Shown piece after piece: positions 2,352-64,000 of a DNA stretch of 64,000 nucleotides (the first letter of the stretch is position 1; every line of letters begins with the position of its first letter). The stretch lies in NCBI RefSeq assembly GCF_003086295.3, contig NC_092052.1, positions 79,714,834-79,778,833 of the forward strand, given 5' to 3'. The translations under genes and the position numbers were made by a program. The notes beneath the pieces are model-generated. The model was not told the origin of the DNA, searched no databases, and worked only from the letters and a program-made list of their open reading frames with translations. The DNA is from Arachis hypogaea (taxonomy: Eukaryota > Streptophyta > Magnoliopsida > Fabales > Fabaceae).

Positions 2352-3370
2352 CAACACTAAACTTGAATTGTTGCTTATCCTCAAGCAACCAAAACGAATA
2401 CATGCTTAGGATGTGAATTCCCATGAGAAGTGAAAGTTCAATTAAGCTCATGTCTCTTCTTAAAGTGGGGTTTACACACTGTAATCCTGAATAGTTTTAG
2501 GATCTCACTCTCTTTTAAATCAGAGCAATGTCATGTCATTCAGAATTAGAATCCGGATAATATTATGAATTATCTAATCTTTTATACTTCAGTTTAATCC
2601 TTGAACACAGCGAATTTCCTTTATTTCTCTTTTCTTTGGTGCTTCGCACCCTGAGCCTAGCAGTGACTTTAAATGCTTTGTCTCAAGCTTCACCAGACAC
2701 AAAAACACTACAAGCACTTAACTGGGAAACTCTCTTTAAGTTCTGATTTTTCTTTCAGTTACTCCCAGATAGTGGTGCTTAAAGCCTTTGGCATACTCTG
2801 TTAAGTGAACTTGATCTTGACTCTTAGTGCTCTGTCTCAAGGATTACTTGACACATTTACACCACAAGCATATGACTAGGGAAACAACTCTTTGAGCTTT
2901 TAATCATGTTTGACCTCCCTAGTCATTGATGCTCAGAGCCTTGGACCTTGCTTTTATTCTTCTTTTGCTGTTTCTTTTGCTTCAAGGATTAAGCTTTTGT
3001 TTAATTCAGAGAATTTATAATAGTTCTCTAAATTCCTATTCCTTATGCATCGATATTCTTTGATTCAAATTCAACTATGCATTGTTGATATCATGCATTC
3101 AGAATCACAAATCATACCACCACATTTAAGTAAATAAGACTACTCTTAAATATAAACTTAATTTCTCATGCAATACATCACTTCTTTTCTTTTCTTTTTA
3201 GATTCAAGCTCAGTGAGTGGTACATGAGACAAAATTTTTTTTAAACTAAAAGCAAATAACAGAATGAAACTAAATCTAAGAACTGAAAGTACTAAAGATC
3301 ATGCAAGCAATCAAAGCAACAGAAAACAGAAGACAACAAAATAAGAACGGAAGGAGAAATGGAATGAAAG
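2352..3370 (-). other. E0 3' interior, non-coding
   Basis: No ORF of note. It holds the RGGA-loop hairpin at 2371-2388 beside the LTR. The remainder resembles the 3' interiors of E1 (7925-9080), E4 (53000-53770, other strand) and E7, with phrases such as 'gctctgtctcaaggattacttgaca'. It ends at the E2 target duplication, 3371-3375. Confidence 0.6.
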
Positions 3371-4887: not shown

Positions 4888-6254
4888 AACCTTCCCACAC
4901 TTAAATTAAGCATGTCCTCATCCTTAAATCAAGAAAGAGACAAAGGGTATCAACATTTATTCAATGTAAACTATCTAAATGCAACTACCTACATGCAATC
5001 TATATGAATGCAATCACTTAGTCAAAATAAATCAAACTCCAAGAATACATACATAAGTGCAAGGGCTAAAGGTATTAACAACCAAGTCAGACCCACAGTT
5101 GAATTGAATTATTGAGAAGAATTTACAAACTTGCAAGAAAATATGATCATGGGTGGAAACATGTAATTGAGCGATCGAACCCTCCCCGGATGTGTATCCG
5201 CTCTATCTGCTCAAGTGTATGGTGTTGATTTACTTAATTCTCCCTTAATCATGCTTTCCAATATTTGTTTTTCATCTAACAATCAACAATTATTTCATGC
5301 ATGCATACAAATATCATGAGGGATTTTCCAAAGGTTGTAATGGGGTCAAGGTCAAGGTAAGATTGTATTTGGTCAAGTGAGCTTGAAATTTGAATCTTTG
5401 ATCAACATAAGCTTCCCACCTAACCTATATAACAACCTATACAAATTTGAAACTAACCTAACTACCCATTCTTCACTTTTCCACACACTCATGCATTTTC
5501 TTTTCACTTCACAATACATATGCATTGATTTTTATTGAACCTTACTTTGGGACATTTTGTCCCCTTTTTATTGCTTTTCCTTTCCTATATTTTTTTATTT
5601 ATTTTATATATATATATATTCTTTTTTTTTTGCAATAAACTATATACAAAAGTATCAATGCATATGGTTTTACATTTAGTTAATACATGAGCATGTTCCC
5701 AATTCCCAAATATAGAAATACAAAACACCTTTTTATCCCAGCCAATGTTCCCAAATCTCTCCAAAATCAAATGATAAGCACTCTCACTAGCCTAAGCTAA
5801 CCAAAGATCCAAACAAGGGAAATTTATTGTTTTTCACTTAAGGCTTATAATGTGCTAAAATTAAGAACAAATGGGTTAATCATAGGCTCAAATTGGCTAA
5901 CAATGGGAGATAAAAAGTAAGGCTATTTGGGTAAGTGAGCTATTTAAATAATGGCTTCAATCATATAAATGCATGTATACACAAGATAATGGACATATAG
6001 AATCAAATAAATCAAAGATTACAATCATAGAGAGAGAACAATGCCCACAAGAAGGAAAATAAGTGGTTATATGATGTAACCACGCAATTAGGCTCAAAAC
6101 TCACTTGCTTGTGTTCTTAGCTCAAAACATGTTCCACAATATACGTACTTCAAGCAAGTTCTCAAAATTATTTTTTTTCGAATCAATTGGGGTGCCCTAT
6201 AGATAAAATTCTTGAAAAATATCATGATTTTGACTCAGCTTACTATATACATAT
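4888..6254 (-). other. E2 3' interior, non-coding
   Basis: No credible ORF. It carries the imperfect hairpin at 4908-4925 and the polypurine tract by the LTR, then about 1.3 kb homologous to E3 44298-45800, E5 57823-59320 and, on the other strand, D 28710-30400. Ends at E1's target duplication gcaac (6255-6259). Confidence 0.7.
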
Positions 6255-7924: not shown

Positions 7925-9082
7925 CAACACCAAACTTAAATTGTTGCTTGTCCCCAAGCAACTGAAAATCAAATAGGATAAAAAGAAGAGAATATACTAT
8001 AAATTCCAAAATATCAATGAAACTTAGCTCCAATCAGATGAGCGAGACTTGTAGCTTTCTGCCTCTTGAATAGTTATGGCATCTCACTTTATCCTTTGAT
8101 GTTCAAAATGATTGGCATCTATAGGAATTTAGAATTCAGATAGTGTTATTGATTTTCCTAGTTCAGTATGTTGATTCTTGAACACAGCTACTTTATGAGT
8201 CTTGGCCGTGGCCCTAAGCACTCTGTCTTCCAGTATTACCACCGGATACATACATGCCACAGACACATAACTGGGTGAACCTTTTCAGATTGTGACTCAG
8301 CTTTGATAAAGTCCCCAATTAGAGGTGTCCAGGATTCTTAAGCACACTCTTTTTTTGCTTTGGACCTTGACTTTAACCGCTCTGTCTCAAGTTTTCACTT
8401 GACACCTTCACGCCACAAGCACATAGTTAGGGACAGCTTGGTTTAGCCGCTTAGGCTAGGATTTTATTCCTTTAGGCCCTCCTATCCACTGATGCTCAAA
8501 GCCTTGGATCCTTTTTATTACCCTTGCCTTTTGGTTTTAAGGGCTATTAGCTTTTTACTCTTGCCTTTTGGTTTAAAGAGCTTTTGTCTTTTTCTGCTTG
8601 CTTTTTCTTTTTCTCTCTTTTTTTTCGCCATTTTTTTTCTTTTTTCGCAAGCTCTTCTCTATTCACTGCTTTTTCTTGCTTCAAGAATCAATTTTATGAT
8701 TTTTCAGATTATCAATAACATTTCTCCTTTTCATCATTCTTTCAAGAGCCAACATATTTAAAATTCATAAACTACAATATCAAAAGACATATGCATTGTT
8801 CAAGCATTCATTCAGAAAACAAAAAGTATTGTCACCACATCAAAATAATTAAACTAGTTTCAAGGATGAATTCGAAACCATGTACTTCTTGTTCTTTTTT
8901 AATTAAAACATTTTTCATTTAAGAAAGGTGATGGGTTCATAGGACATTCACAACTTTAAGGCATAGACACTTAGACACTAGTGATCATATAGTAAAGACA
9001 CAAACATCAATAAAACCTAAAGCTCAAAAAAATCGAAAAATAGTAAAATAAATAGACAAGGAGATTAAGGAATGAGTCCACC
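7925..9082 (-). other. E1 3' interior, non-coding
   Basis: Begins at the LTR with AAGTTTGGTGTTG and a hairpin TTGCTTG-GGGA-CAAGCAA (7944-7961). The rest is homologous to E4 53000-53760 and to E7. It has T-rich runs and no convincing ORF. Confidence 0.7.
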
Positions 9083-10289: not shown

Positions 10290-10309
10290 TTTGCTCGTCC
10301 CCGAGCAAA
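10290..10309 (-). other. Internal RGGA hairpin (HP-B) upstream of ORF2 in E1
   Basis: Minus strand: TTTGCTCG-GGGA-CGAGCAAA, an 8-bp stem with a GGGA loop, followed by TTTTAAGTTTAGTGTGG (10271-10287). Same layout as at the 3' LTR (7944-7961), but the stem has an extra paired change (CTCG/CGAG against CTTG/CAAG). It lies 56 nt upstream of the ORF2 ATG. Confidence 0.7.
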
Positions 10310-10587: not shown

Positions 10588-10634
10588 GGGTATTTGCCTC
10601 CCAACAAGCGCTTCTTTAATGTCAATAGCTTGAC
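10588..10634 (-). other. Decayed post-ORF two-stem module (HP-A) in E1
   Basis: Minus strand: GTCAA-GCTA-TTGAC (10621-10634), then ATTAAAGAAGCGCTTG, then GTTGGG-AGGCAA-ATACCC (10588-10605). The first stem is intact. The second has lost its 3' arm; CCCAAC would be expected. Intact versions are in E0, E2, E3, E4 and D. Confidence 0.6.
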
Positions 10635-10675: not shown

Positions 10676-10790
10676 TGGGACCTCCCAACACCAAACTTAG
10701 AGTTTGAATGTGGGGGTTCAACACCAAACTTAAAGTTTGGTTGTGGCCTCCAAACACCAAACTTAAAGTTTGACTGTGGGGGCTTTGGTT
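10676..10790. repeat. Triple CAAACTTAAAGTTTG repeat in E1 interior
   Basis: Three copies of a near-palindrome (acaccaaacttaaagtttg and variants) about 35-40 bp apart, each after a G-rich or C-rich spacer. They lie at the 3' end of the gag-protease region. The half-motif is the same AAGTTTGGTGT that borders the 3' LTR and recurs in the leader. Confidence 0.7.
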
Positions 10791-12983: not shown

Positions 12984-14883
12984 ATGAAAAAGAAGAAAAC
13001 AGAAAAGAAAATATGGAATCCTCTATGTCACAGTATAGAGATTCCTTTATGCGAGTAGAAGAAGAAAAGAATAGAAGAAGGAAAAGATAAAAATCCAACA
13101 CAGGGGAGAGGAGTGGGTTCGAATTCTTGGGTGAAAGAGGGGTGTTAGTAGATAAGTAAATAATTAGAAGGAGATGAGAGAGGGAAGAATTTTCGAAAAT
13201 AATTGAAAAGAAAAGAAAAATATTTTTGTTTTTAATTTAAATTTAAATTTGAAATTCGAAAATAAAATAAAAAAAGAAAAATTAAATTAAATTAAATTAA
13301 AATTCAAAACAATTAGTTAATTAAAAAGAAATTTTTGAAAAAGAGGAAGGTGATTTTCGAAAATTAGAGAAAGAGAATTAGTTAAGTAGTTTTAAAAAAG
13401 ATAAGAATCAAACAAAAAGATAGGATTAATTTGAAAAAGATTTGAAAATCAATTTGAAAAGATAAGAGGTTAGAAAAGATTTTGAAATTGATTTTGAAAA
13501 AGATGTTATTGAGACTTATTTTGAAAAAGATTTGAAAAAGAAATATTAAGATATTTGATTTTGAAAATTAAAGTTGATTACTTGACTAACAAGAAACAAA
13601 AAGATATGAATTTAAAGTTTAAAGATTGAATCTTTCTTAATAGGCAAGTAACAACTTGAAATTGTTGAATCAATCACATTAATTGTTAGTAAAGGTTTTG
13701 AAATTATGAAATAAAATAAGAAAAAGATTTTTGAAAATTAATTTGAAATTTTTGAAAATCATAAAAGAAAAATGAAAAAGATTTGATTTTTGAAAAAGAT
13801 TTGAAAAAGATAGAATTTTTAAATTGAAAATTTGATTTGACTGATAAGAAACAACTAGATTTTAAAAATTTTTTAAAAAGTCAACTCAAATTTTTGAATT
13901 TTATGAGAAGAAAAAGGGAAAGATATTTTTTTGATCTTTTGAATTTTAATGATGAGAGAGAAAAACATCAAAAAGACTCAATGCATGAAAATTTTGGATC
14001 AAAACACATAATGCATGCAAGAACACTATGAATGTCAAGATAAACACCAAGAACACTTTGAATGTCAAGATAAACACCAAGAACTTATTTTTGAAAAATT
14101 TTTAAGAAAAGAAAAACATGCAAGACACCAAACTTTGAAATTTTCAATGTTGAGACATTAATAATTCAAAAATGCATATGAGAAACAAGAAAAGATATAA
14201 AACAAGAAATTTTAAAGATCAAACAAGAAGACTTACCAAGAACAACTTGAAGATCATGAAGAATGCAATGCATGAATTTTTGAAAAATGCAAGAAAGAGA
14301 TAAACATGTAATTGACACCAAACTTAAAAACTGACGCAAGACTTAAACAAGAAACATCAAATTTTTGGTTTTTATGATTTTATTAAATTTTTTTGTATAT
14401 TTTTCAAAAATTATTTTGAAAAAGAAAATAAGGATTTCAAAATTTTTAATAGGAATTCCAGGAATCTTGCACTGTTAGTCTAAAGCTCCAGTCCAGGAAT
14501 TAGACATGGCTTACTAGCCAGCCAAGCTTTCAGTGAAAGCTCCGGTCTAAAACACTAGACATGGCCAATGGCCAGCCAAGCTTTAGCAGATACAAATCAG
14601 ACATACAACAGCTGATATTTCATCCAACTTCATTCTATGCTGATAAGTGGAAGCCCCAGTCCAAATGAATTAGACATGGCTTTACAGCCAGCCAGGCTTC
14701 AACATGCTTCATGAAACCCTAGAATTCATTCTTAAAAATTCTGAAGAAAAATATATTTTTGAAAATATTTATTATTATTTTTTTTTTGAAATTAATAATA
14801 ATAAAAACAAAAAGCTCAAAATTAAAATAAAATTACCTAATCTGAGCAACAAGATGAACCGTCAGTTTTCCAAACTCGAACAA
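12984..14883 (-). other. E1 AT-rich untranslated leader
   Basis: About 1.9 kb between primer binding site and gag ATG, very A/T-rich on the minus strand, with no ORF. It holds two AAGTTTGGTGTC motifs on the minus strand (14124-14135 and 14314-14325) and a threefold repeat near the LTR (14477-14702). Confidence 0.75.
14477..14702. repeat. Three direct repeats (gccagccaagctt units) in E1 leader
   Basis: Three imperfect copies of a unit of about 45-65 bp containing 'agctcc(a/g)gtc', 'ttagacatggc' and 'agccagcca(a/g)gctt', around 14477-14530, 14538-14585 and 14650-14702. Just downstream of the primer binding site on the transcribed strand, a region where packaging or dimerisation signals would be expected. 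Confidence 0.7.
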
Positions 14884-16572: not shown

Positions 16573-16687
16573 GCAACACAAGAAAATGTAACAAAAATTC
16601 CTAAAATGAAATGCAAAAGTGTTGGGATTAGAAATTGTCACCCAAAAATGCCAATCGGTCGGACGTCCTCCCCACACTTAAAAGTTT

Positions 16688-16703
16688 GCACCGTCCTCGG
16701 TGC
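16688..16703 (-). other. Internal RGGA hairpin (HP-B) in E2
   Basis: Minus strand GCACCG-AGGA-CGGTGC, a perfect 6-bp stem, followed by AAACTTTTAAGTGTGGGGAGG (about 16667-16687). That tail is the same as the polypurine-tract sequence beside D's 3' LTR. Identical stem in E3 (45852-45867). Confidence 0.75.
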
Positions 16704-17087
16704 ATCCAATGATGAGCAAGGGGTATGGCGACTCTCCGAGTTGCTACCTTCAGCTGGTAGGTCACCCGGTATTGCATGTTCTTCTCCCGCTTCCATTTTT
16801 GCTTATGATAACTCATCCATGAAAAATAGCAAATAGTACAAGAGATGAGAAAACGCAAGAGCAAGGAAGAGTAAGTCAATAATAGGCAGCAATGAATAGT
16901 ATATCACTAATGATCCAACACTTGTAATGAGAAACAAAAATTAAATCCAAAATTAAACTAGCTAAATAACTAACTAGGGGTTAATGCATGGCGTTTGGCA
17001 GTGTTGGATGATGGGTGGGAGAAACGAAGAAGAGAGAAGAAGGAAAAAAATGGAAAGAAGACAAGAAAAGAAGGCGGATGGAAGGAT

Positions 17088-17572: not shown

Positions 17573-19745
17573 TCAAGGTGGCTTGTGCTTGAATTCATCC
17601 TTGAACATCGACCAATGCTTTGACTTCCAATAGGCTCCATCATTTAAGATTAATATCTCCAAGCTTTGATGGAGTTCTTTGTAAGCTATGAGCTCCCAAA
17701 GTTGATTCTCTTTGTGCAATCCGGGATCCCACACTTTGTTTTCACACCCATCTTCAAATTGGTCATCATGATTCCATACGGGCGGCAAGCAGTCCGAATT
17801 CTCATATAAGCGCCAAAGCATCCTCTTAGACCCCCTTAAGTGAGAACTATACCAACCATTGTGCTTAGACTTTGAGCTTCCAACAATAATGAACCGTGAG
17901 TTAAGGTGTCTACCACTAACCATTTTTTTCCTACTCTTAACTCCACAAAGAGCTCTAAGTTGTCCATCATTTTCAATCAAGCCATATTCAAGTAGAAAAA
18001 TAAAGCTTAGGGATAAGAATTTTATCCACTTGAATGTTGTGTTAGATGGTGACTTAGGAAGGGGGACCTCTCCATACTTAGACAATGCGAGGTCCACTCT
18101 CTTATGCTCTTCCTTTTCAACTTCCACCTCCTTGCATGCTTTTTCAAATTCAACCTCTTCCTCTTGGTAGCTTTCTTCCAATTCAAGCTCTTCATCATTG
18201 CTTACCAAGGGTATGGGAGGTAAGGTGGCTTCTTCTTTGATCTTTATGTCAAGTCCAATGGGGGAGGATTCAAATGTAGATAGGGATTCATCAATAATTG
18301 AATCCATTTGTTGATCAACCTCTTCAAAGTCTTCCACCATGATATGTTTTGGAGATTGTACACCCTCCTCAACATCAATATCAAGCTTGTTGGAAGAGGA
18401 CTCTTTACTCATACATCCCCAAGGACTTCCAACATCTCTTAAATCTTTGACCGTCCCCTCCGACTCAAGTGTCTCTACTTCCTCCCTTTGTTGTAGTTCT
18501 TGCTTCAACTCCTCTTCTACACCATGAAGCTCTAAACTCACTCCCTCACTATACTCTTTGATTTCTCCACATCCATCAACGGGAGTGCCTTGATCGCCTA
18601 GGCTTAGGCGGGAGGATACTATGTTACTGACGACTTCCACCAAGGTAGCAAGCACGTCTTCTAGCTTCTTGAATTCTTCCTGCGTCTCCTCTCCATGCCT
18701 CGTGAAGCGAGAAGTGATGTCTCGTTGTCGTAGCACGAGGGAATGGCGACCTTCATCCATTGGAGGTGGTGTAGGAAGAGAAGTTTCATTGTTTGGGAAA
18801 AAGGGCTCATAATTGGAAAGTGGTTCAACAACTTCCACAAAATCATTAACAATGTCACTTAGTGTGGAAGTGTTCTCAAACTTGGAATTCACCTCTTGCT
18901 CAACTTCGCCTAGCTCTTCAACCACTTCTTCTTCATTAACAATCTTTTCCTCTTTAACTTGTTGCATGACACACTCCATGCTCCGCTCTCTGGTTGATTC
19001 TCCACATTCACCCATGGAAATGCTTTGTCTACTGTATGAATCCTATGCGTCCACATTGGTTTTAAATTTGGCAAGGTTAGCCTCGATAATTTCTTTCACT
19101 CTTTGGGCTTCCTCTTGTTCTCTTTGGCAGATGATTGCTTGAAGCCGATCCACTGCTTCCTTGTAGTGATCCTTTGGCTCTTGTTCCACTTGACTAGCAT
19201 AAGTAGGATCATCTTGCTCTTGGACCAATGGATGTGAATATTTTTCCATGGAGGGTTGTGGTGAAAAAGGGAGTTCATTTTGCGGTTGAAAGTCATCATA
19301 CATTGGAGGTAGTTCCTCTTGGTATAGCATGGAGGTGGTAATTCTTGAGAGTATTGGTAATTGAATTGTGGTGGTTCTTCATATGGTTCATATGGTTCAC
19401 AAGGTGGTTGGTATGGTGGATAAGGATGATGGTCATATGGGGGTGTTTGGTGGTGAGGGGCTTGTGAGTATGATGGTTCAAAACTAGGTTGAGGGGTGGT
19501 TCATAGGCATATGTTGATTGTGATTGACAATCACAATGAAGGTCACCACATCCACTAGATTGATATGCATTAGGATCAGAATTATACCTATGAGAAATCG
19601 GAGGTGGTTGCCATGAAGAGTGATCAACCTCTTGAGGCCCCTCCCATCTTTGATTGTTCCATCCTTGATGCACATCGTCATTGTAACCTCCATTCCATAC
19701 AACATAGTTGTAACCAAACTCATAGCCAAAGGGGTGAGAATTCAT
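17573..19745 (-). pseudogene. ORF1 of E2: unrecognised element protein ending FKHKPP
   Basis: Starts MNSHPFGYEFG at 19745. The N-terminal part is rich in Tyr, Pro, Gln and Asn. The frame then shifts at a run of C (plus 19492-19495) and continues to 17573 with one TAG at 19043-19045. The middle is strongly acidic (many Glu) and probably helical. The last about 155 residues form a conserved block from FKWIKFLSL at 18034 through EYGLIENDGQLRALCG, KVWDPG and HW to DEFKHKPP. E3 and D have the same block. No similarity known to me; position (first ORF after the primer site) suggests a gag substitute, but no gag core is seen. Confidence 0.75.
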
Positions 19746-21532: not shown

Positions 21533-21552
21533 TTTGCTTGTCCCCAAGCAAA
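21533..21552 (-). other. Internal RGGA hairpin (HP-B) in E0
   Basis: Minus strand TTTGCTTG-GGGA-CAAGCAAA, perfect 8-bp stem, followed by CTTTTAAGTTTGGTGTTG. Confidence 0.75.
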
Positions 21553-23900: not shown

Positions 23901-25466
23901 ATGAACTCTCACCCTTCTCGCTTTGAGTTTGGTTCTAACTTTGTTGAAGGAAATAGAAGCCACAACAGGAATATGCATCAAGGTCAGACCAATCAAGGAT
24001 GGATGGAGCCAAGAGGATCTAATCAACCCTTTAGGCAACAACACCCTCCAAGATATCATGGAAAATGACCATTCCACAATGCATACCCAGCTGATAGATA
24101 TGGTGGACAACCTTGTAACTACCAACAAGCCCCACCCCGTGCCTATAGACCATCCTCTTAACAAAACCTCGAACCACCACACTCACAAGCTTCTCTTCAC
24201 CATTCGCCACCACATGATCCCTATTTACCCCAGTTCCAATCCAATCACTCCCAAGCACCACCACTTTCCTATGTATCATGTCCAAATCCATCACCCCGAG
24301 AATCAGAGGTTCGCCTCAAAGAAACAGTAAATAAACTTCAAACAACCATTCGACAACTGGAGCAAGCAGTAATTCAATTAGCTTCTAGACGTTCGAACAT
24401 CCAAGGACCAACCACAGCCCCATGTGGACAATCTAACGAAGAGCGTACCATGAAGGAAATACTAGAAACTCCAGTGGACAAGACAGAGAATGAATTCGTA
24501 CTAGAACACGTAGAAGAAGCTGTCTTTATGCAAGAAGAAGAGTTGGTTGAAGATCTAGGAGACGCTGAACCTCCTTGGGAATTCAGAGCTGAGGAGAACT
24601 CCATCAAGGACGTTACAGTTGATGCTAAGGAGGACAATGCATAATCCCCAAGGCAAGTCGTTTATGAAGAACTAGACGGAATAACCCAGGACATAAATTT
24701 CCTTGATGATGATAGTCACAAATCAAGTTCTCTTAGTAATGAACTTGCATCTGCAAGTGAATTCTCTGAGATAGAAGAATCTTCCCCAAATGAATACGAA
24801 GATGATGTAGAGGTAGATTTCTCTCAACCTCCAATCTATGACTCGAGTGATGAGGAAGACACAGAAGACTTTGACCAGGACACAGATGCATTTGAAGAAC
24901 CTTGCAAAGAAGTGGAGGAATTCACAGAAGAGCACAAGGGAGTAGAACTTACAGAAACACCAGAAACACTTACCCCAAGGCCATTACCACCCAATACAAG
25001 CTTTAAGTGGGTACAATCCTTAACCTTTAACTTTACTTTTTCACTTGAATACGGTTTGCTTGAAACAGATGGCCAGCTTAGAGCTCTCTGCGGCTTTAGG
25101 GGTAAAAGGGAAATGGCTCGTGCTCAGAGCTGGTGCACAAGGTTCAATAAGGTTCCACGCTTCAACTTGAAGTGCACGGATTGGTATCATGTTCAATTGA
25201 ATGGATCTCGGAAAACGTTTGGTCACCATGGTGAGAATCTACTTTCTAAACCGCCTGGATGGAAAAATATAGATCAAGACGGAGGCAGATTTAAAAGCAA
25301 AGTTTGGGATCCTGGAATCTATTTCGACATTCGTCATTCCGGGAGCCTAAAAATTTGTTTGAAGCTGCTCAGGAGCTTTACATGCCTAGTTTGGGACCCT
25401 GGAGGCTATTGGCATTCCAAGCATTGGTGGAGATTTTTGGATGAATTTAAACATAAGCCGCCATAA
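23901..25466 (+). pseudogene. ORF1 of D: unrecognised element protein ending FKHKPP, three in-frame stops
   Basis: One plus frame from ATG 23901 (MNSHPSRFEFG) to TAA at 25464-25466, 521 codons, broken only by stops at 24066-24068, 24159-24161 and 24642-24644. N-terminus rich in Asn, Gln, Pro, Tyr; then a leucine-spaced helix (LKETVNKLQTTIRQLEQAV, about residues 141-159); a Glu/Asp-rich centre; and the conserved C-terminal block from FKWVQSLTF at 25002 with EYGLLETDGQLRALCG, two WDPG motifs and HWWRFLDEFKHKPP. Unlike the E2/E3 copies, no frameshift is needed. Family unknown to me. Confidence 0.8.
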
Positions 25467-28666: not shown

Positions 28667-28706
28667 GAGCATCAGGGACGATGCTTCATTTTAAGTGTGG
28701 GGAGGT
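28667..28706 (+). other. Internal HP-B hairpin and polypurine-like tract in D
   Basis: AGCATC-AGGGAC-GATGCT (28668-28685) followed by TTTTAAGTGTGGGGAGGT (28689-28706). It begins 2-3 nt after the ORF2 stop. The purine tract repeats the sequence that borders the 3' LTR (30423-30439). Confidence 0.75.
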
Positions 28707-30401
28707 CGCCATTTCTGGCATTCTTTTTTGGTGAACCACTACATACTCTTTTTATTTATTTTGCTATTTTTCTGTATTTTTCTTTTTATTTCTATTTTGC
28801 AGTACTTATACATTGCTATTTTCATGTATGTATACTCTATTTCTGCATTTTGCATTTTTAGTTCATATTTTAGCCACTTAGTTTAGTTGCAATTCTAACT
28901 TATTAGTTATAGAAATTGTGGATTGATTAGTATAGTTTACCCTTTTTAGCATAAGATAACTTGGAATAGATTGAAAAGAAAAAAGGAAGTAAACTAGAGA
29001 CTTTAACAGAATCAAAACATCCCACACCTTGTATATATGGCATTACATGTTAGTTAATTAAACAACATTTCATCAAGGAGAAACACTAGAACTTTAAAGC
29101 CACCTTAAGTTTTACATTGAGAATAATGGGAATTTTTAACTAAACCTGCATAACATACATAAGTGATAAATGATTTTTGAGCTAGAGAACACATAGCCTG
29201 TGAGTTTTGAGCTTAATTGTATGGTTACATTCAAACCATAATTTTTATTCCTGTGTTCCGCCCTTCTTGTTTATTCTGGTGTTCTTTACTTTGTTTTAAT
29301 CTATATGTTCGATTATAGAATGTAGATACATACCAAGAGAGTGATTGAGGCCATTATTTGATTTTAGCTCACTTATCCCAAAATATCCTACCTTTTACAT
29401 CACCCTTGTTAATCCCCTTGAGCCTTTAAATCCCCTCCTGTTTTATAACCACATTACTAGCCTTAAGCGGGAAAACAAATAAAGAAGTCCCAAGTTGAAT
29501 CCTTGGTTAGCTTAAGATAGAAATTGTGTAATTGCTTAAATGTGGGGAAACCATTGGGAACATGGATGATAGAAACAAAGGGTAGAAGGTTGAAAAAGAA
29601 TAAAGATGTTTCAAAATAAGAATTTTTGGGAAACATGCTCATGTGAAGTTAAAGAAATTAAATTACCATGTGCATTAAAAAAATTTATTAATTTTCAATA
29701 TTTGAATAAAGGGGACACCAAAGGATTCCCCAAATGCAAATAAAGCAATGCACATGGGATAAAAATAAACATTAAGGCATGAACATGTAACATCAAAAGT
29801 GGAAAAATATGGGAAAATAGGTAAAGCAGCTTTGCTTTAGAAAGTATGTATGTTAGGTGAGATCTTAGACTAACTAAGGATTCACTTATTAGCTCACTTA
29901 GCCTTATACATATACCCTTACCTTTACCTTGGCCCCATTACAACCTTAATTAAAGACCTCATGATTTTTGGTATGTCTATATTCTATAATTGTTGATTGG
30001 TTAGATGAAGAACAAAGTTATAGAAAGAAAGAATAAAAAGAAGAATAGAGTGATTAACCCAATAAACACTGAGTGATTAGAGAGTAAACACAAAATCCAG
30101 TGAGGGTTCAATAGCTCATTAACATGTATCTCTGCTTAAATTATTAATTGTCTTGCAAGTTTTTAAAATGTTTTTCTCTCCCATCTCAATTGTAAAGGCA
30201 CTTTATCACTATCTAAGGCTTGGCTATATATATATACATGACTCCTTGAGAATGTGAATTAATTTAACTACATGCAAGCTTTATATTCAAGTGAATAAAA
30301 ATTAGAATTGCATGATGCATCATTCATCTAGGTAGTTGCATTTAGATTAGATTGCATTGCATGACATTCCACCACTTTAACCTTACTTTTTACCTTGGAT
30401 T
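28707..30401 (+). other. D 3' interior, non-coding
   Basis: About 1.7 kb AT-rich with no credible ORF, homologous (opposite strand) to E2 4926-6254, E3 44340-45800 and E5. Ends at the 3' hairpin. Confidence 0.7.
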
Positions 30402-30439
30402 TAGCATGAGGACATGCTATTGTTTAAGTGTGGGGAGGT
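30402..30439 (+). other. D 3' hairpin (HP-B) and polypurine tract
   Basis: TAGCATG-AGGA-CATGCTA (30402-30419), perfect 7-bp stem, then TTGTTTAAGTGTGGGGAGGT abutting the 3' LTR at 30440. The GTGTGGGGAGG part is the plus-strand primer candidate. Confidence 0.8.
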
Positions 30440-34258: not shown

Positions 34259-35690
34259 AGTTTTTGGCGTCATTGCCGAGGAATGTTCGAGTTTGACAAA
34301 CTACCGAACTATTTTGTTGGTTAGATTAGGTACTTTTATGGTTTACTTGCTCTTTTAATTCTGTTTCTTGCTTTATTTTCCAAAAATTTTTTCAAAACCT
34401 TTATCTGTTTTTGACCATCTATTTCCTTTTGAGTTTTCTATTTTGAGTCTTACCTATTTCTTATTTCCTTTTTCAAACATTTTTGAAAATATTTTCTTTT
34501 CTTTGGTAATCTTTGTTTTTTGTTTGAGTATTGTGTCAGTCCTTAAGTTTGGTGTCTCTTTTTATCTTTGGTCCCTTTGGTACTATTGGTTTGTCTTTTC
34601 TTGAGTTTTTAGAAAATTGTTCTTGTTTTTCTTCTTGGTATTCGAACTGTTCTTGTTACTTTCTTTTATTTGATGTCAAATTCTTTAAGTTTGATGTCTT
34701 TTGGTGTTTATCTTGCAAATTTTGAAAAATTAGTGTCTTAGATTTTAAAATTTTAAGTTTGGTGTCTTTTTGTGTTTTTCTTTTCTTAAATTTTTGAAAA
34801 CGTGTTCTTGAGTGTTCTTCATTGTGTTCAAATTGTTCTTGGTGTTTTTCTTTCTTTGATCTTAAAATTTTTGTGTTTTTCCTTCAAAAATTTCGAAAAT
34901 CATAACCGTTGATTTCAAAAATTTTTAAGTTTGGTGTTTCCTTGTTAAGTACAGTTTAATTTTTAAATTTTAAATCCTATCTTTTCAAATCTTTTTCAAA
35001 ATCTTTTCAAATCTTTATCTTATCTTTTTATCTTTCTTTGAATTTTAAAAAGATCCTATCTTATATTATTTTAAATATAATTTTAAAATTCGAATTTCAA
35101 AATCTTTATCTTATCTTAAATCAATTTCAAATTTCAAAATCAAATCTTTTTCAAAATTCAAATTCACAAATTTTCAAAATCAGATCCTTTCAAATGTTGT
35201 CTTTCTAGATTATTGATCTTTAAAATTTCAAATTTGAATTTTAAATCTTTAAATTTAAAATTTCAAAATCTCAAATTTAAATTTCAAATCTTTTAAATTT
35301 TTCAATCTTATCTTATCTAGTTTGACTCTTTCTTTTAAATTTTAAATTTCAAATCTTTTCTTTCTTTTCAAATTCAAAATTCAAATCTTTTTGTTTGACG
35401 TTCTCTTTTTGAATTTTAAAATTTTCAAAATCAAATATGTTATCTTTCTTTTCAAATCTTGTTAGTTAATTGTTTGTCTTTCTTTTTTAATTTCAAAAAA
35501 TTTTAAATCCCTTTCTTTCTAATTTTTTATTTTATTCTCGAATTTTTTAATTAAATTTTCTATTTTTATTTATTATTTTTTATTTTAAAAAAAATTAAAT
35601 TTTTAAATTCTTTTTCCCTCTTTAATCTTCGAATTCTCCCTCTTTATTCTCGTCTATTTCTTTTGGATATATTACTGGGAGCTCCCTATA
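34259..35690 (+). other. E6 primer site and AT-rich leader
   Basis: Primer site TGGCGTCATTGCCGAGGA at 34265-34282 (three changes from the tRNA-Asp complement). Then 1.4 kb of T-rich leader with four AAGTTTGGTGTC-type motifs at 34545, 34687, 34755 and 34927, and long runs of 'tttcaaatctttt' simple sequence at 34980-35640. No ORF. Confidence 0.75.
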
Positions 35691-37880: not shown

Positions 37881-38679
37881 TGGCGCCGTTGCCAGGGATT
37901 GTTCGAGTTTGGACAACTGACAGTTTATTTTGTTGCTTAGATTAGGAAAAATTTACTTTTTTAGTTCAGAGTCACTAAAATTGTGTCTTCTATTGTTGTT
38001 TTTGGTTGAAACTTTTTTTTTAAATCCTTATTTTTTTTTTCAAATTTTTTCGAAAATTTTTATAAACTAATAATTGAGTTTTTCTGTTTGAGTTTAGTTT
38101 CATATTTTAAGTTTGGTGTCAATTGCATGATTTTATTTTTCTTTTAATTTTTTTCGAATTATTAGTGCTCAGAATATAAAAATTTTTAAGTTTGGTGTCC
38201 TTTGTGTCTCTGTTTTCTAAAAAAATTTTTCAAAAGTTGTTCTTAGCGTTCATCGTGATATTCAAAGTTTTCCTGTTTGTTTCCCTTGTTTTGATCTAAA
38301 AATTTAAGTTTGGTGTCATTTTTACTATTTTTCTCTTTCTTCAATAAACTCAAAAATATCTTTTCTTTTTATTTCAATTAATTTTACGAATTTTCCTTTA
38401 AAAGTTCAGATTTTTATTTTAAAACTTTTTATTCTATCTTATCTTCATTTTGAAATTTCAAAATTCAAAATCTTTTTCAAAAATCATATCCAAAGTTTTT
38501 CAAATCTTCTTAATTAAGTAATTATCTTACTTTTCGATATTTATATTTTAATTTCTAATTATTTTATTTTACCTTATTATTTTTATTTATTTTTAATTAT
38601 TCGGTTTGTTTCTACTTAAATAAAATAAAAACAAAAATATATTTTATTTGCAATTCATATCAACTTTCGTTTATCCATC
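37881..38679 (+). other. E4 primer binding site and leader
   Basis: Primer site TGGCGCCGTTGCCAGGGA at 37881-37898, one change from the tRNA-Asp complement. Then 780 nt of T-rich leader with AAGTTTGGTGTC at 38109-38120, 38188-38199 and 38306-38317. No ORF. Confidence 0.85.
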
Positions 38680-44297: not shown

Positions 44298-45851
44298 AAT
44301 CTTCCCACACTTAAACCAAGCATGTCCTCATGCTAAGAATAAAGAAGGACAAGAAAAGGGTATGAACATTTATTCAATGCAAATAAACTATATGCACCTA
44401 TCTATATGCATGCAACTAAATGCAATATGACTCTATCTACTTGGTTAAATGTAAATCAATCCCCAAGAGCATGTATGAACAAGTAGGGCTAAGATCATAT
44501 GATGATTCATGAATCCTACCAATTCAAATATCAAAATGAAGTACAAGTAGACTTGCAAGAAGAAAAGCTCATGAAAGCCGGGAACAAGGAATTGAGCATC
44601 GAACCCTCACCGGAAGTGTATCCGCTCTAGTCGCTCAAGTGTATAGGGTGATCCACTCAATTCTCTTCTAATCATGCTTTCCATGATTTGTTTTTCATCT
44701 AACAATCAACAATTATTCAATGCATGCATACATTCATCATGAGGACTTATTCATAGGTTGTAATGGGGCTAGGGTCAAGGTAGGATGCATATGGTCAAGT
44801 GAGCTTGGAATTTGAATCTTTGATTAACCTAAGCTCTCACCAAACACATATAACAACCTATACAATTCTAGTACAATGCCTAGCTACCCATGATTCCCAC
44901 TTTTTCACACACTCATGCATTCTCTTTAATTCACATTCCATATGCATTGATTTTTATTGAACTTTACTTTGGGGCATTTTTGTCCCCTTTTTATTTCTTT
45001 TTCTATTTTATTTTTATTTTTTTCTTTTTATATATATATTTTTTTCTTTATTTTGTAATTAATTTTTTTTGTAATAAATCATATACAAGAGTATCAATGC
45101 ATATGGTTTAAACATAATTAATACATGAGTATGTACCCTATTCCCAAATTTTTCAATAAAAATAAAAATTACACTTTTATCTCAACCAATGTCCCAAGTT
45201 TCCCATACCCAAATGATATACACCCTCACTAGCCTAAGCTAATCAAAGATCTAAATTAAGGACATTTATTGTTTTTCACTTAGGGGTGGTGATGTGCTAC
45301 AATTAAGAACAAAAGGGATTCAATAGGCTCAAATTTGGCTAACAATAGTTGATGAAAGGTAGGCTATTTGGGTAAGTGAGCTAAATGAAATGATGGCCTC
45401 AATCATATAAATGCATGTATACATGGAATAATGGACATAAAGAATTAAACAAATCAAAGATTACAATCATAGAAAGAGAACAATGCACACAAGAATGGAA
45501 ATAATTGGTTATAAGATGTAACCACACAATAAGCCTCAAAACTCACATGCTTGTGTTCTTAGCTCAAAAACCATGTTCCAAAATAAATTCTTCAAGCAAG
45601 TTTATCACAAAAAAAAATTTCAAATTGGTAGGGTGCCCTAAAAATAATTTTTCTTGGAAAAGAATCATCACCCTAACCAAGTAGTCCTAACGTGAAAAGA
45701 AGTGGTAAAATATGTACAAATTCTAACTAACATGCAACCTATCATGCAATGCAACAACTAACTAACAAAGGGAAAAATTAAAAATTGGTGTTGAAAAGGA
45801 AGTTGTTACCCATGGAGGTCGGTCGGACGACCTCCCCACACTTAGAAATTT
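44298..45851 (-). other. E3 3' interior, non-coding
   Basis: AT-rich, no credible ORF. Hairpin AGCATG-AGGA-CATGCT (minus, 44319-44334) and TTTAAGTGTGGGAAG lie beside the LTR. Homologous to E2 4888-6254 and E5 57823-59330. Confidence 0.75.
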
Positions 45852-45867
45852 GCACCGTCCTCGGTGC
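45852..45867 (-). other. Internal RGGA hairpin (HP-B) of E3
   Basis: Minus GCACCG-AGGA-CGGTGC, then CAAATTTCTAAGTGTGGGGAGG. Identical stem to E2's internal hairpin. Confidence 0.75.
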
Positions 45868-46704
45868 GTGCAAAGAAGAGTAAAGTGGACGGGTTGCTAC
45901 AATTGATGAGTTTCTTCAAAGGGTTGTGCGGGTGAACTTGTTTGTTGCCCCGTTTAGAAGCCCTTCCATTCCTTTCCTTCTTGGTGGCCAACCTCGAAGG
46001 AGAGAAAAAGAAAGAAAATTAAGCCTACAACAAAGATATGAAAGAAATTAGAACATAGGCGGGGGCTAATACCAAATACAAGTATGGTTCTCAAAGACAT
46101 GGTAGCTACAACATATAAGTGAGAAAACAATATAAGCTAAGGGCATATCAACTAATACTTGATGCAAGAGTAAAGTCAAAGCATAGGCAAATGACATGAA
46201 GAGCATGTTGCATCAAGCTTAATCAATAATTGAGACAAACAAGATTAATGATAAGCATGAGAGCATTTGGTCCCATCCTAACTCAATGATGATGAGGTAC
46301 AAAAACAAGGGATCATGAGTCAGGAAGAACTAAAGAACTAATCTTGTGTGTAGAGCAAGTATTACGATTAATGCCAAACAAGTCACAAAGCACCAAGATT
46401 AACCAAGAAATTCTCAACAATTGAATATAAGAATCCAACACCATTATTAAAACAAGAAACTTAGAAAATAAAAGGGAAAACAAGTTACAAAAATAAAATT
46501 AAAATGCAATGAATGAAAACAAGGAAATGCAATAAAAGAAAATGGAAGAAAAAAGAAAAAATATTTTTTTTATTATTATTTTTTAAATTTTTAAATTTTT
46601 TTTATAATTTTTATATTTTTAAAAGAAAGAAAAAAATAGAAAGAAAGAAGAAGGAAAGAAAAAAAAAGAAGGAGAAAGGAGAAAGGAGAAAAACAGGGTG
46701 CAAA

Positions 46705-47362: not shown

Positions 47363-49047
47363 TTAAGGTGGCTTGTGCTTGAAGCTATCCTTGAACATCC
47401 ACCAATGCTTGAATCTCCAATAAGCTCCATTCTTCAATATTAATATCTTCAAGCTTTGATGGAGTTCTTCACAAACCATGAGCTCCCAAAGTTGATTTTT
47501 CTTGTGCGATCCGGGATCCCACACTTTGTTTTGACACCCATCTTCAAATTGATCTTTATGATTCCAATTGGGTGGCATGACCTTAGAATTCTCAATTAAG
47601 CACCCAAACATTCTCCTAGACCCATGCAATTTGGTTCTACACCAACCATTGCTATTCAACTTCGAGCATGCAACCATCATGAACTTGGAATGATGTTTCC
47701 AACTACTACACAACTCTCTCTTACTCTTAACTCCACAAAGAGCTCTAAGTTGACCATCATTTTCAATCAAACCATATTCAAGTGAGAAAGCAAAGCTTAG
47801 GGATAAGAAATTTACCCTCTTGAATGTTGTGTTGGATGATGACTTAGGAAGGGATGGTCCCAATGATCTTGCAAGCTCCACTCCCTTGTGCTATTCCTTG
47901 ACTTTCTCCACTTCTTTACAACTTTCCTCAACTTCAACCTCTTCCTCTTGGTGGCTTGCTTCCAATTCAATTTCTTCTTCATTGCTCACCAAAGCCATGA
48001 GAGGCTGTGCATCTTCTTCTTTGATCTCAATTTTAATCCCAATGGGAGAGGATTCAATTGTAAATAGAAACTCTTCAATGATTGAATCCATTTCTTGATC
48101 AACCTCTTCAAAGTCTTCAGTCATGATATGCCTTGGAGGTTGTACACCCTCCTCAACATCAATATCAAGCATCTTGGAAGAGGACTCTCTAATTCTACAT
48201 TCCCATGGACTTCCAACAACTCCTAGATCTTCAACCACTTCTTCCGGCTCATTCATCTCAACTTCTTCCCCTTGTGGCAATCCTTGTTTCACCCCTTCTT
48301 CTACACCTTGAAGCTCTAGACTCACTCCCTCGCTATGCTCCTTAATTTCCTCTCCACATTTGTCAATGGGAGTGTCTTGGTTGCTTAGGCTTAGTCGGGA
48401 GGAGGCCATATTGCTAACAGCTTTCACTAGGATAGCCATCTTGGCTCCTAGCTCTTTAAACTTCTTTTCATCCTCCTCTTGTCGCCTTAAGATATGAGAT
48501 TCAAGATCTCTCAATTCATGCGTGGGGGCTTCATCGGGAGGTGATGGTGGAAGAGAAGGTTCATTGTTTGGGAGGAAGGTATCATGTTTGGAAGTTGGTT
48601 CATCTTGGTAAGGGTATGGAGTTGGTGTATATGGAGGTGGTTCTTGAGAGTAGTTGTGTTGGTATTGTGGTGGTTCTATGTATGGTTCATATGGTTCATA
48701 AGGTGGTTGATATGGTGGATAAGGATTAGGGTCATATGGGAGTGTTTGGTGGTATGGGGCTTGTGAGTAAGGTAGTTCAAAGTCATGTTGAGGGGTGGTT
48801 CATAGGCATATGGTGGTGGTTGTTGACAATCACAATAAGGGTCACCACATCCATTAGATTGATATGCATTAGGATGAGAGTTATACCCATAAGAATCCGG
48901 AGGGGGTTGTTGCCAAGAAGGGTGATCAATCCTTTGAGGCTCCTCCCACCTTTGATTGTTCCATCCTTGATGCATATCCTCATTGTAGCTCCCATTTCCT
49001 ACAACATAATTTGAACCAAACTCGTAGCCAAAGTGATGAGAATTCAT
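47363..49047 (-). pseudogene. ORF1 of E3: unrecognised element protein ending FKHKPP
   Basis: Starts MNSHHFGYEFGSNY at 49047 with a Tyr/Pro/Gln/Asn-rich N-terminus. The frame shifts at a run of four C (plus 48791-48794), at the same aligned place as in E2. After the shift it is open to a stop at 47891-47893, then to 47363 in the same frame. Acidic Glu-rich middle; conserved C-terminal block (from about 47825) with EYGLIENDGQLRALCG, KVWDPG, HWWMFKDSFKHKPP. Function unknown. Confidence 0.78.
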
Positions 49048-52600: not shown

Positions 52601-53770
52601 ATTAAAAGAGCATCCATCTCCCAAAATAAAGGTTGTTGAGTCCTAATCTTAACTCTGTGATAACTTTTGCTATTAGAGATCTACCTTAGGAGTCACATGA
52701 ATAATAGTAATTAGTATCTTTATTTTTATTTTTAGTTTTTATTTTATTATCTCCAAGTAAGCTATAATTTATTTTTCTCATCATCATTAAACATGAATAA
52801 AATAGCAGATTTTTAGAATAAGGAGGCAGTTTTATTTTGGAGTTCTTAATAAGAAAAATTCGCATTATTTATATGAGGTGGCAATACTTTTTGTCTTCTG
52901 AATGAATGATTGAACAGTGCATATGTTTGAATTTGTTGTTTATGAATGTTAAAATTGTTGGCTCTTGAAAAAATGATGAAAAAGGAGAAATGTTATTGAT
53001 AATCTAAAAAAATCATAAAATTATTCTTGAAGCAAGAAAAAGCAGTGAAGAACAAGGCTTGCGAAAAAAAAAGAGAGAAAGAAAAAAGAAAAGCAAGCAG
53101 AAAAAGCCAAGAGCTCTTTAAACCAAAAGGCAAGAGCAAAAAGCCAGTAACCCTTTAAACTAAAAGGCAAGGGTAAAGAGAATCCAAGGCTTTGAGCATC
53201 AGTGGATAGGAGGGCCCAAAGGAATAAAATCCTGGCCTAAGCGGCTAAACCAAGCTGTCACTAACCATGTGCTTGTGGCGTGAAGGTGTCAAGTGAAAAG
53301 CTTGAGACTGAGCAGTTAAAGTCGTGATCCAAAGCAAAAAAAGAGTGTGCTTAAGAACTTTGGACACCTCTAACTGGGGACTTTAGCAAAGCTAAGTCAC
53401 AATCTGAAAAGGTTCACCCAGTTATGTGTTTGTGGCATTTATGTCTCCGGTGGTAATACTGGAAAACAAAGTGCTTAGGGCCATGGCCAAGACTCATAAA
53501 GTAGCTGTGTTCAAGAATCAACATACTAAACTAGGAGAATCAATAACACTATTTGAATTCTGAGTTCCTATAGATGTCAATCATTCTGAACTTCAAAGGA
53601 TAAATTGAGGTGCCAAAACTGTTCAGAAGCAAAAAGCTACTAGTCCCGCTCATCTAATGAGAATTTGAGCTTCATATAAAACTCTGAGATGTTATTGCCT
53701 CTTGATTTTCTTTCTATCATTTTTATTTGTCTAGTTGCTTGAGGACAAGCAACAGTTTAAGTTTGTGTTA
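52601..53770 (+). other. E4 3' interior and 3' hairpin
   Basis: No further ORF. Homologous to the E1 and E7 3' interiors. Ends with GTTGCTTG-AGGA-CAAGCAAC (53734-53753), then AGTTTAAGTTTGTGTTA adjoining the 3' LTR. The tract beside the LTR is only weakly purine-rich. Confidence 0.75.
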
Positions 53771-57822: not shown

Positions 57823-59330
57823 AATCTCCCCACACTTAAACCAAGCATGTCCTCATGCTAAGAATAAAGAAGGACAAGAGAAGGGGTATGAACATTTATT
57901 CAATGCAAATAAACTATATAAACCTATCTACATGCATGCAACTAAATGTAAAATGATTCTACCTACTTGGTTAAAAGTAAATCAGTCTCCAAGAACATGT
58001 ATGAACAAGTAGGGCTAAGATCATACGATGATTCATGAATCCTACCAATTCAAATATTAAAATGAAGTTCAAATAGACTTGCAAGAAGAATGCTCATGAA
58101 AGACGGGAACAAGGAATTGAGCATCGAACCCTCACCGGAAGTGTATCCGCTCTAGTCGCTCAAGTGTATAGGGTCGATTCACTCAATTCTCCTCTAATCA
58201 TGCTTTCCAAGATTTGTTTTTCTTCTAACAATCAACAATTATTCAATGCATGCATACATTCATCATGAGGACTTATTCATAGGTTGTAATGGGGCTAGGG
58301 TAAAGGTAAGGATGCATATGGTCAAGTGAGCTTGAAATTTGAATCTTTGATTAGCCTAAGCTCTCGCCTAACCTATATAACAACCTATACAATTCTAATA
58401 CAATGCCTAGCTACCCATGATTCCCACTTTTTTTTCACATACTCATGCATTCTTTTTAATTCACCACACATATGCATTGATTTTCTTATTGAACTTTACT
58501 TTGGGACATTTTTGTCCCCTTTTTATTTCTTTTTCTCTTTTCTTTTTTTTTCTTTTTTTTTTATCATTTTTTTTAGTACATACAAACGTATCAATGCATA
58601 TAGTTTTACATATTTAATGCATAAGCATGTACCCAATTCCCAAAAATCTTTAACAAAAATACAAACACACACTTTCCTTTCAACCAATGTCCCAAGTTTC
58701 CCATACTCAAATGATACACACCCTCACTAGCCTAAGCTAATCAAAGATCCAAATTAAGGACATTTATTGTTTTTCACTTATGGGTAGTGATGTGCTAAAA
58801 TTAAGAACAAAAGGGATTAAATAGGCTCAAATTTGGCTAACAATGGTTGATGAAAGGTAGGTTTTTGGGTAAGTGAGCTAAATGAAATGATGGCCTCAAT
58901 CATATAAATGCATGTATACATGGAATAATGGACATAAAGAATCAAACAAATCAAAGATTACAATCATAGAAAGAGAACAATGCACACAAGAATGAAAATA
59001 AGTGGTTATATGATGTAACCACACAATTAGGCTCAAAACTCACATGCTTGTGTTCTTAGCTCAAAAATCATGTTCCAAAATAAATTCTTCAAGCAAGTTC
59101 ATCAAGAGAAATTTTTTTTGAATTGGTAGGGTGCTCTAAAAATAGTTTCTTGAAAAAGAAATCATCACCCTAACCAAGTAGTCCTAACATAAAAAGAAAT
59201 GGTAAAATATGTACAAATTCTAACTATCATGCAATGCAACAACTAACTAGCAAAGGAAATCAAGAATTGGTGTTGAAAGAAAGAAATTGTTCCCATGGAG
59301 GTCGGTCGGACGACCTCCCCACACTTAGAA
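57823..59330 (-). other. E5 3' interior, non-coding
   Basis: AT-rich, homologous to E3 44298-45850; no credible ORF. Polypurine-type GTTTAAGTGTGGGGAGATTTG lies next to the LTR on the minus strand. Confidence 0.75.
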
Positions 59331-59537
59331 ATTGTTCCTAAAGATGTCAATACTTCTGAGCTTCAAAGGAAAGTGAGATGCCAAAACTATTCAGAAGTAA
59401 ATAGTTACTAGCCCCGCTCATCTAATTGAAACTGAGCTTCATAGAAAACTATGAGATTTATCGTATCTTTCTATTTCTTTTTAATCCTACTTGTTTTTGG
59501 TTGCTTAGGGATAAGCAACAGTTTAAGTTTGGTGTTC
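59331..59537 (+). other. E6 3' interior remnant with 3' hairpin
   Basis: Matches E4 about 53570-53770. Hairpin GTTGCTTA-GGGA-TAAGCAAC (59500-59519), in which the loop-closing pair is A:T in place of G:C, then AGTTTAAGTTTGGTGTTC before the LTR. Confidence 0.75.
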
Positions 59538-62819: not shown

Positions 62820-64000
62820 CAACACCAAACTTAAATCGTTGCTTGTCCCCAAGAAACTAAAAACACAGTAGGAAAAAAAATTAAGATAAAATAAATTTCT
62901 AAGTTTTAAATGAAGCTTAGTTAAAATCAGATGAGAGGGACTTAGTAGCTTTTTGCTTCTGAACAGTTTTAGAATCTCACGATCCATTGAAACTCAGAGA
63001 TATTGGTATCCTTAGGAGCTTAGAATCTAGATGATATTATTTACTTTCCTAGTTAAGCTTATTTTTATTCTTGAACATAGCTTTTTAAGTCTTGGCCGTG
63101 ACCCTAAGCACTCTGTTTTCCAGGATTACCACCAGATACATTCATGCCACAGACATTTTACCTGGGTGAACCTTTTCAGATTGTGACTCAACTTTGCTAG
63201 AGTCCCCAGATAGAGGTGTCCAGAGTTCTTAAGCACACTATTTTTTCTTTGGACAGCGACTTTAACCGCTCAGTCTCAAACTTTTCACTTGACACTTTCA
63301 TGCCACAAGCACATGGTTAGGGACAGCTTAGATTGAGCCGCTTAGGCCAGGATTTTATTCCTTTGGACCCTCCTAACCACTGATGCTCAAAGCCTTGGTC
63401 CCTTTTACCCTTGCCTTTTGGTTTAAAGGGTTATTGGCTTTTTCTACTTGTTTTTTTTCTTTTATTTTTTGCAACTATTTTTTTTCATGCAAGCTTTTTC
63501 TTTTTCTTTTTGCTACTTTTTCTTGCTTCAAGAATCAATTTTTATATTTTTCAGATCATCAATAATATTTCACTTTCATCATCATTCTTTCAAGAGCCAA
63601 CATTCATAAATCACAACTTCAAATATGCACTGTTTATTTCATACATTCAGAAAATAAAAGCAAATGACACCAGATCAAACTAATTAAACTAATCTTATTT
63701 TAAACTTGAAATTCATCTATCTCTCAGTTCTTTCTAAATAAAAATTTTCTTTTAAGCAAGATGAGAGATATATGGAATATTTTACAACTTTAAGACATCA
63801 AATACAAATGATCATGCAACTTAGAACAAGAAAACAAATAAACAGACAGACAGAAAATAGAAAAATAACAGGAAAGGAGTAAAAGAGAATGAATCCACCT
63901 GAATGATGGAGGCTAGTGCTCCTCCTTGAGGATCCAATGTAGTGCTTGATCTCTTTGATGTCACTCTTTTGTCATTGTTGAGGCATCTCCACATGTTCAT
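62820..64000 (-). mobile_element. Element E7 3' interior, runs off the window
   Basis: Begins with AAGTTTGGTGTTG and hairpin GTTTCTTG-GGGA-CAAGCAAC (62838-62857, one mismatch). Homologous to E1 7925-9240, including near its end 'ctcctccttgaggatccaatg', which aligns near E1 9110, the C-terminal end of ORF2. ORF2 may therefore follow outside the window. No ORF is defended inside it. Confidence 0.75.

Follow-up and report, generated by a model that had tools for sequence, protein, structure and literature searches.

What does a short hairpin with a constant loop and freely varying arms do beside the 3' LTRs of peanut retrotransposons? We took up this question in a 64,000-nt stretch of the Arachis hypogaea genome, referred to here as the window, in which an earlier note had reported such hairpins next to nine LTRs.

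The hairpin–tract module and the elements that carry it

Self-comparison shows the window to be a nest of LTR elements, with LTR pairs for E1, E2, D, E3 and E4; TG...CA ends and 5-bp target duplications are readable for the same five. Three LTR types are present, TGATGAGCGG (E1, E4, E6 and E7), TGATGCG (E0) and TGATAAACC (D, E2, E3 and E5). The ORFs of E4 match PF00078, PF17917 and PF17919, which are RT and RNase H matches of Ty3 type, and the named relatives of its RT are mostly plant RT proteins, with up to 89% identity to those of Arachis hypogaea. Another E4 ORF, without a Pfam match, was read by eye as an integrase C-terminus, and the 3' hairpin follows it after ~1.7 kb. No RT was found by tblastn in the other elements of the window. 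In E1, E2, D, E3 and E4 the 5' LTR gives way to a TGGCGCCGTTGCCGGGGA-like sequence, a putative PBS complementary to tRNA-Asp. Calypso and Diaspora are described in a passage of PMC1142308 as having a PBS complementary to tRNA-Asp. The peanut elements are probably Athila/Tat-type Ty3/gypsy retrotransposons.

Other reading frames vary between elements. Related ORFs with no Pfam match lie at 17573-19042 (minus strand), 24645-25466 (plus) and 47891-48799 (minus) in E2, D and E3, respectively; those of D and E2 have the ending FKHKPP in common, and RT was found in none of the three elements. PF20167 ORFs are present in E1 and D, and tblastn with both ORFs found no other in the window.

All nine LTR-side hairpins of the earlier note are present where it had placed them. 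The D hairpin, TAGCATG-AGGA-CATGCTA, occupies 30401..30420 on the plus strand (paired part 30402-30419), 20 nt from the LTR start. The D primer tract TTTAAGTGTGGGGAGGT follows at 30423..30439 on the same strand and abuts the 3' LTR TGATAAACCC, which runs from 30440. The other terminal hairpins lie on the minus strand at 2370..2389 (E0, with LTR TGATGCG...), 7943..7962 (E1, with LTR TGATGAGCGG), 4907..4926 (E2), 44317..44336 (E3), 57842..57861 (E5) and 62838..62857 (E7), and on the plus strand at 53734..53753 (the pol-bearing E4) and 59500..59519 (E6, with an A-T closing pair and a GGGA loop). Their flaws are also as described: E2 is imperfect, with one internal mismatch, and E7 has one mismatch. 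Two features had been overlooked, namely five internal copies of the module and its near-fixed spacing. Across the resulting 14 window sites, the module consists of a 6–8 bp stem, an AGGA or GGGA (RGGA) loop and a TTTAAGTKTGG tract, in that order. The distance from loop end to AAGT is 12–14 nt at all 14 sites. At the nine terminal sites, the LTR starts 17–20 nt from the stem base and 25–27 nt from the loop end, counting E6, whose TG is mutated and whose LTR start was therefore located by homology. The terminal hairpins are related by descent, and their shared spacing is therefore partly inheritance.

The association of loop and tract far exceeds chance. The window contains 13 RGGA hairpins with at least six contiguous pairs (mean 3.8 in 200 dinucleotide shuffles), and 11 of them are followed by the AAGTKTGGKG motif when up to two substitutions are permitted (shuffle mean 0.065, maximum 2). 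Among the 540 tetraloop hairpins in the window with such stems, the motif follows 17, and the loop is RGGA in 11 of these. A loop-plus-tract pattern with no stem has seven matches in the window against 0 expected; it covers the internal copies of E2, E3, D and E0, and that of E1 was found by the hairpin search only. None of 120 chance sites with GGAC..TTTAAGTKTGGKG among the IMG/VR matches listed has a stem of at least five pairs.

Paired changes in the stems

The earlier note had also described paired stem changes, and an ungapped 20-column alignment of the 14 window sites (13 distinct) bears this out. Paired cells make up 92.3% of it, compared with 61.9% on shuffling, and 0 of 500 shuffles reach the observed level. 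Two-sided changes occur at all eight stem pairs, in 28 cells against 9.7 when shuffled (0 of 500 shuffles reach 28), and pairing falls to 23-49% when partner columns are slid by 1-3 positions. Two other statistics are less distinctive: the number of pairs with a two-sided change (8) is reached in 16 of 500 shuffles, and the number of further pair types (13) in 100. A covariance model of all 14 sites scores its members at 20.6–30 bits and the best other site at 12.3. A model built from the nine terminal hairpins recovered two of the five internal copies (E0_i and E1_i) and missed E2_i, E3_i and D_i.

Folding predictions qualify this picture. When the 38–40 nt unit is folded by itself, the MFE structure is the hairpin at every site but E2 (13 of 14), yet z is below -2 at only seven of the 14. 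Within 320 nt of context nine of the 14 hairpins form, with a mean probability of at least 0.8, and E2_3, E3_3, E5_3, E7_3 and E0_i do not. At gathering thresholds no Rfam family matches the hairpin. The sole Rfam match in the window lies elsewhere, at 12348-12455 on the plus strand, where snoR71 (49.4 bits, gathering score 40) falls antisense in the E1 gag ORF; it is perhaps fortuitous.

A coding explanation was considered and rejected. The open stretches that run through the hairpins measure 9–91 aa in the sense direction and up to 92 aa in antisense, in frames that vary from site to site, and at eight of the 14 sites a stop falls inside the hairpin in at least one of the six frames. A protein search with the ORF that crosses the D hairpin gave one match, covering LTR sequence only.

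The arms vary while the RGGA loop is retained at all nine LTR-defined sites. This is the behaviour expected of a protein-bound loop, and it could reflect a packaging or Gag-binding signal in which nucleocapsid binds the G-rich loop, two copies mark the genomic RNA and nearness to the tract is secondary. Retention of the loop in elements where tblastn finds neither RT nor IN fits such a signal as well. Packaging needs no tract, yet the tract is duplicated along with the hairpin at near-constant spacing, and the leaders of E1 and E4 contain no listed RGGA stem of at least five contiguous pairs. We regard a packaging role as unlikely.

We extended the comparison to a sample of the same genome, taken as forty stretches at round-number positions (260 kb). 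Sites were chosen by RGGA and a tract 11–15 nt apart with no stem rule, which gave 27 sites in which loop conservation is built in and stem pairing is not selected. Stems pair at 7–8 of 8 positions in 24 of the 27 and at six in one; the two that pair poorly, L138:7870 (shifted by one column in the alignment) and L146:1661, are kept in the count. The sample adds the LTR types TGATGACA (with an outer C-G pair) and TGATGCAC, together with new inner stems such as TGTTCG/CGAACA and GCATCG/CGATGC. When window and sample are combined (41 sequences, 27 distinct), the paired share of cells is 88.4%, compared with 60.2% on shuffling, and two-sided cells number 57, compared with 20.4; 0 of 500 shuffles reach either value. 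These cells are not independent events, since many stem changes are inherited by whole families. The numbers of pairs with a two-sided change (reached in 90 of 500 shuffles) and of further pair types (130 of 500) are not distinctive in this set. The earlier note had named two grounds for dropping the idea, namely that more sites would fail to show compensatory changes or that a coding frame would account for the conservation; within this genome compensatory change is present and no such frame was found.

A second sample was chosen by the tract alone, as 48 exact TTTAAGTTTGGTGTT sites (48 of 100 places listed, all on contig 1). Among the matches listed, the hairpin is present at 34 of the 36 sites that an LTR start follows; one exception has a three-base loop and the other is interrupted by a solo LTR. 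The remaining 12 sites include five with the hairpin, one of which (L179) is classed here although it resembles a terminal site whose LTR start has changed, and seven without it, which by eye are leader or tandem-repeat sites. Genome-wide, the 15-base motif occurs 91,787 times in 2.56 Gb, against 93 occurrences of the reversed control. In IMG/VR, scans with the hairpin pattern, an IN query and an RT alignment returned three chance matches or no relatives, and GTDB contigs gave no RT relatives and three pattern matches in bacterial records.

One sampled site, L200, was considered as a primer relic, in which an LTR end is joined to the loop and 3' arm; it is instead a solo LTR that has interrupted the hairpin and is flanked by a 5-bp target duplication. 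The solo LTR within the hairpin of a related element, with the target duplication ACAAG, lies in L215:1-5001 (G000:C1:12702300-12707300).

The internal second copy

The five internal copies belong to E0, E1, E2, E3 and D. Each has its own TTTAAGT-type tract and lies on the same strand as the terminal copy, 1.1–2.4 kb upstream of it. The D copy (28667..28686, plus strand) is 1.7 kb upstream; it has an A.C mismatch at the loop closure and is followed by TTTAAGTGTGGGGAGG at 28690. On the minus strand are those of E1 (10290..10309, 2.35 kb upstream), E2 (TGCACCG-AGGA-CGGTGCA, 16686..16705, ~1.45 kb upstream after nested insertions are subtracted) and E3 (GCACCG-AGGA-CGGTGC, 45850..45869, 1.5 kb upstream). 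The hairpin at 21533..21552, also on the minus strand, is assigned to E0 by its probable nesting, which places it ~1.1 kb from the terminal copy once the E2 insertion is subtracted. An internal tract is present in five of the six window elements with enough sequence; the exception is E4, where no internal copy was found. E6 is cut off, and E7 has just 1.1 kb of interior in the window. None of the five internal window sites is followed by an LTR start, so these copies cannot make an LTR end and would instead be upstream plus-strand starts.

The second copy recurs elsewhere in the genome samples. Among terminal modules with at least 2.6 kb upstream, an internal partner was scored in eight of nine, or seven of nine after an internal L146 call that looks spurious by eye is dropped. 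This count includes a decayed L143 copy with a changed loop (AGGG); a terminal call, L158, that also looks spurious by eye is set aside, and L152:9965, whose LTR is cut off, is left unscored. A partner is also present in L154 and L159, which have less upstream sequence, and was not found in the L140 and L146 samples. The module is real, conserved in structure and unexplained by coding, and it is two-fold in most elements that can be checked.

Comparison of the two copies separates the parts of the module. Within the TGATAAA group, identity between terminal and internal sites is 12% over the 5' arm, 92% over the loop and 94% over the TTTAAGTKTGGKG stretch. For D alone the values are 0% (arms), 75% (loop) and 100% (TTTAAGTKTGGKG stretch), and across D, E2 and E3 they are 0-12% for the 5' arms, 75-100% for the loop and 85-100% for the tract. 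Flanks stand at a background identity of 20–33%. The two copies have stayed more similar in E0 and E1, whose arms are 88% and 75% alike. Such likeness of arms, and of the two tracts within any one element, would be expected if the internal unit were a functionless relic of an ancestral 3' end, left by descent or recombination once a stretch separating pol from the LTR had been acquired; passages of PMC1142308 describe relatives (Diaspora) in which pol is followed directly by PPT and LTR. A relic should decay, as some copies (L143) have, but the internal stems of several families pair with unrelated arms. We consider this origin without function quite improbable.

Several further features accompany individual internal tracts. 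A second inverted repeat, of 8 bp (GGAGGTCG..CGACCTCC), takes in the 3' end of the internal tract in E3 and E5 (45814-45835 and 59297-59318, minus strand); the sequences of E2 and D are different at this place. E1 has three 33-nt tandem repeats at 10685-10782 (minus strand); they include a palindrome, which reads CCAAACTTTAAGTTTGG in the middle copy and has the tract sequence TTTAAGTTTGGTG within it. Shortly downstream of these repeats, at 10594-10630, is a 37-nt box common to E4 (52040-52076, just after the integrase-like ORF). The sequence TTTAAGTTTGGTG(TC) and near matches also occur, with no RGGA hairpin, in apparent leaders after 5' LTRs at 14316-14328 (minus), 38106-38315 (plus) and 34542-34936 (plus). 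A TATA-like box, CCCCTATATAAACCCC, at 10423-10438 (minus strand) lies ~110 nt before the E1 internal hairpin and upstream of the PF20167 ORF, and is a possible internal promoter.

With this box ~110 nt before it and the PF20167 ORF ~0.4 kb after it, the E1 internal hairpin could be taken for an RNA-level element that serves the translation, splicing or export of a downstream ORF. D has its PF20167 ORF upstream of the internal hairpin, however, the window holds no further ORF of this type by tblastn with either one, and the terminal copy precedes an LTR. RNA 3' processing, the second of the two roles suggested in the earlier note, belongs with this explanation. The RNA of such elements ends inside the 3' LTR, beyond the hairpin, and a processing signal at an internal copy 1.1–2.4 kb upstream of the 3' LTR would truncate the transcript; processing is disfavoured on both counts. 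We judge a role in ORF expression or 3' processing very unlikely.

In E5, the residual internal tract occupies 59317..59333 on the minus strand. E5 is homologous to E3 as far as 59333, a single base away from the 3' base of the hairpin, which has therefore been lost. At 59333/59334 the truncated E5 passes into another element's 3' end region, with no target duplication. This break was considered as the end of a cDNA started at the internal tract and set aside: it is a single post hoc case with no target duplication, and ordinary deletion suffices.

Breakage one base from the hairpin base, near-palindromic arms and the sampled solo LTR within a hairpin (target duplication ACAAG) would all suit a feature of the DNA itself, either a palindromic protein-binding site or a cruciform used in integration or recombination. 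The arm sequences are nevertheless free to change, and at all 14 sites the RGGA loop, which is not palindromic, reads in the sense direction of the element and has the tract 3' to it, which favours action as RNA. A DNA-level feature is, in our estimation, highly improbable.

Proposed plus-strand priming and known primer tracts

The terminal tract adjoins the LTR start at all nine sites and therefore occupies the PPT position. Purines make up 8-9 of its last 12 bases in the TGATAAA group and only 5-6 in the TGATGAG/TGATGCG group, where sequence alone would therefore be a weak primer signal. Plus-strand priming, the other role suggested in the earlier note, gains support from the fixed spacing of hairpin to tract, their position 17-20 nt before the LTR and the recurrence of the whole unit inside the elements. 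From the predicted structure, covariation, fixed geometry and duplication, we infer that reverse transcriptase stalls at the module, that RNase H cuts there and that priming follows. We lean towards a reading in which hairpin and following tract act together in cis, as a single RNA module present in two copies, to start plus-strand DNA synthesis by stalling reverse transcriptase.

During minus-strand synthesis, reverse transcriptase would copy U3 and then the tract before stalling at the hairpin base. Between this base and the LTR are 17-20 nt, roughly the distance that separates polymerase from RNase H, and the RNase H of the stalled enzyme would sit over the tract/U3 junction, and a cut there would free the 3' end of the primer. 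The terminal copy, abutting the 3' LTR, would give LTR-ended plus-strand DNA, and the internal copy, 1.1-2.4 kb upstream, would give an upstream start of central type. HIV-1 RNase H cleaves 17–18 nt behind the polymerase site (PMC5766924) and pausing increases RNase H cleavage (PMC3187697), so an enzyme stalled at the stem base would be expected to cut at the edge between tract and U3. The active sites of Ty3 reverse transcriptase are ~13 bp apart, not 18 (PMC5371799), which counts against the numerical match, and so does, for the module as a whole, the lack of an internal copy in E4, the only window element with RT. Stalling alone gives no account of the constant GGA of the loop, which suggests an additional contact, perhaps with Gag-NC or reverse transcriptase. 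More tentatively, priming may be directed by structure, with a hairpin of variable sequence acting as a ruler that parks reverse transcriptase so that RNase H cuts at the LTR edge. If so, the primer would not depend on a purine tract, and the internal copy would be a genuine origin upstream.

Parts of this arrangement have precedents. The U-box or T-box is likewise a cis element immediately upstream of the PPT that aids plus-strand priming, but passages of PMC10085805 describe it as T-rich sequence rather than a covarying hairpin; in the peanut elements, the 60 nt that precede the hairpin are 58-70% pyrimidine at the nine terminal sites and 38-92% at internal sites. Sireviruses have several strictly conserved PPT copies near the 3' LTR, but they belong to the Copia superfamily, and their palindromic motifs, as described in part of PMC2829016, lie in the LTR and 5' of env, not before each PPT. 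Athila4 and Calypso, which are Ty3/gypsy elements of plants and have an env-like ORF, carry an additional PPT in their linker (Wright and Voytas 2002, as cited in PMC2829016). A second tract therefore fits an arrangement already on record. The section on these elements in PMC2829016 does not mention a hairpin, and in the peanut elements the internal module and the PF20167 ORF come in one order in E1 and in the other in D. The second tract copy also resembles the central PPT of HIV-1 and Ty1, although a second start in vivo is here a prediction.

Among the open-access literature matches listed, none describes a covarying hairpin before both tracts with near-fixed distances and a constant loop, which is weak evidence of absence. 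The module is a short landmark that could help to place the 3' LTR edge, including in elements without pol. Its variable arms, constant loop and near-fixed distance, repeated across the genome, amount to a natural mutagenesis set for how reverse transcriptase spares and trims a primer; passages of PMC4439019 state that how PPTs work mechanistically is unknown.

A further parallel is in HIV-1 and SIV, where there are also two primer tracts per genome, each linked to a conserved RNA structure (PMC4439019). For these viruses, passages of the same paper describe a conserved helix common to cPPT and PPT and propose pausing-directed primer processing, with the stated caveat that the helix would not explain the exact cut. 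The arrangement differs in that the 3' end of the lentiviral G-run lies within the helix, whereas in the peanut elements a separate hairpin precedes the tract, has a constant loop and keeps a near-fixed spacing to the LTR.
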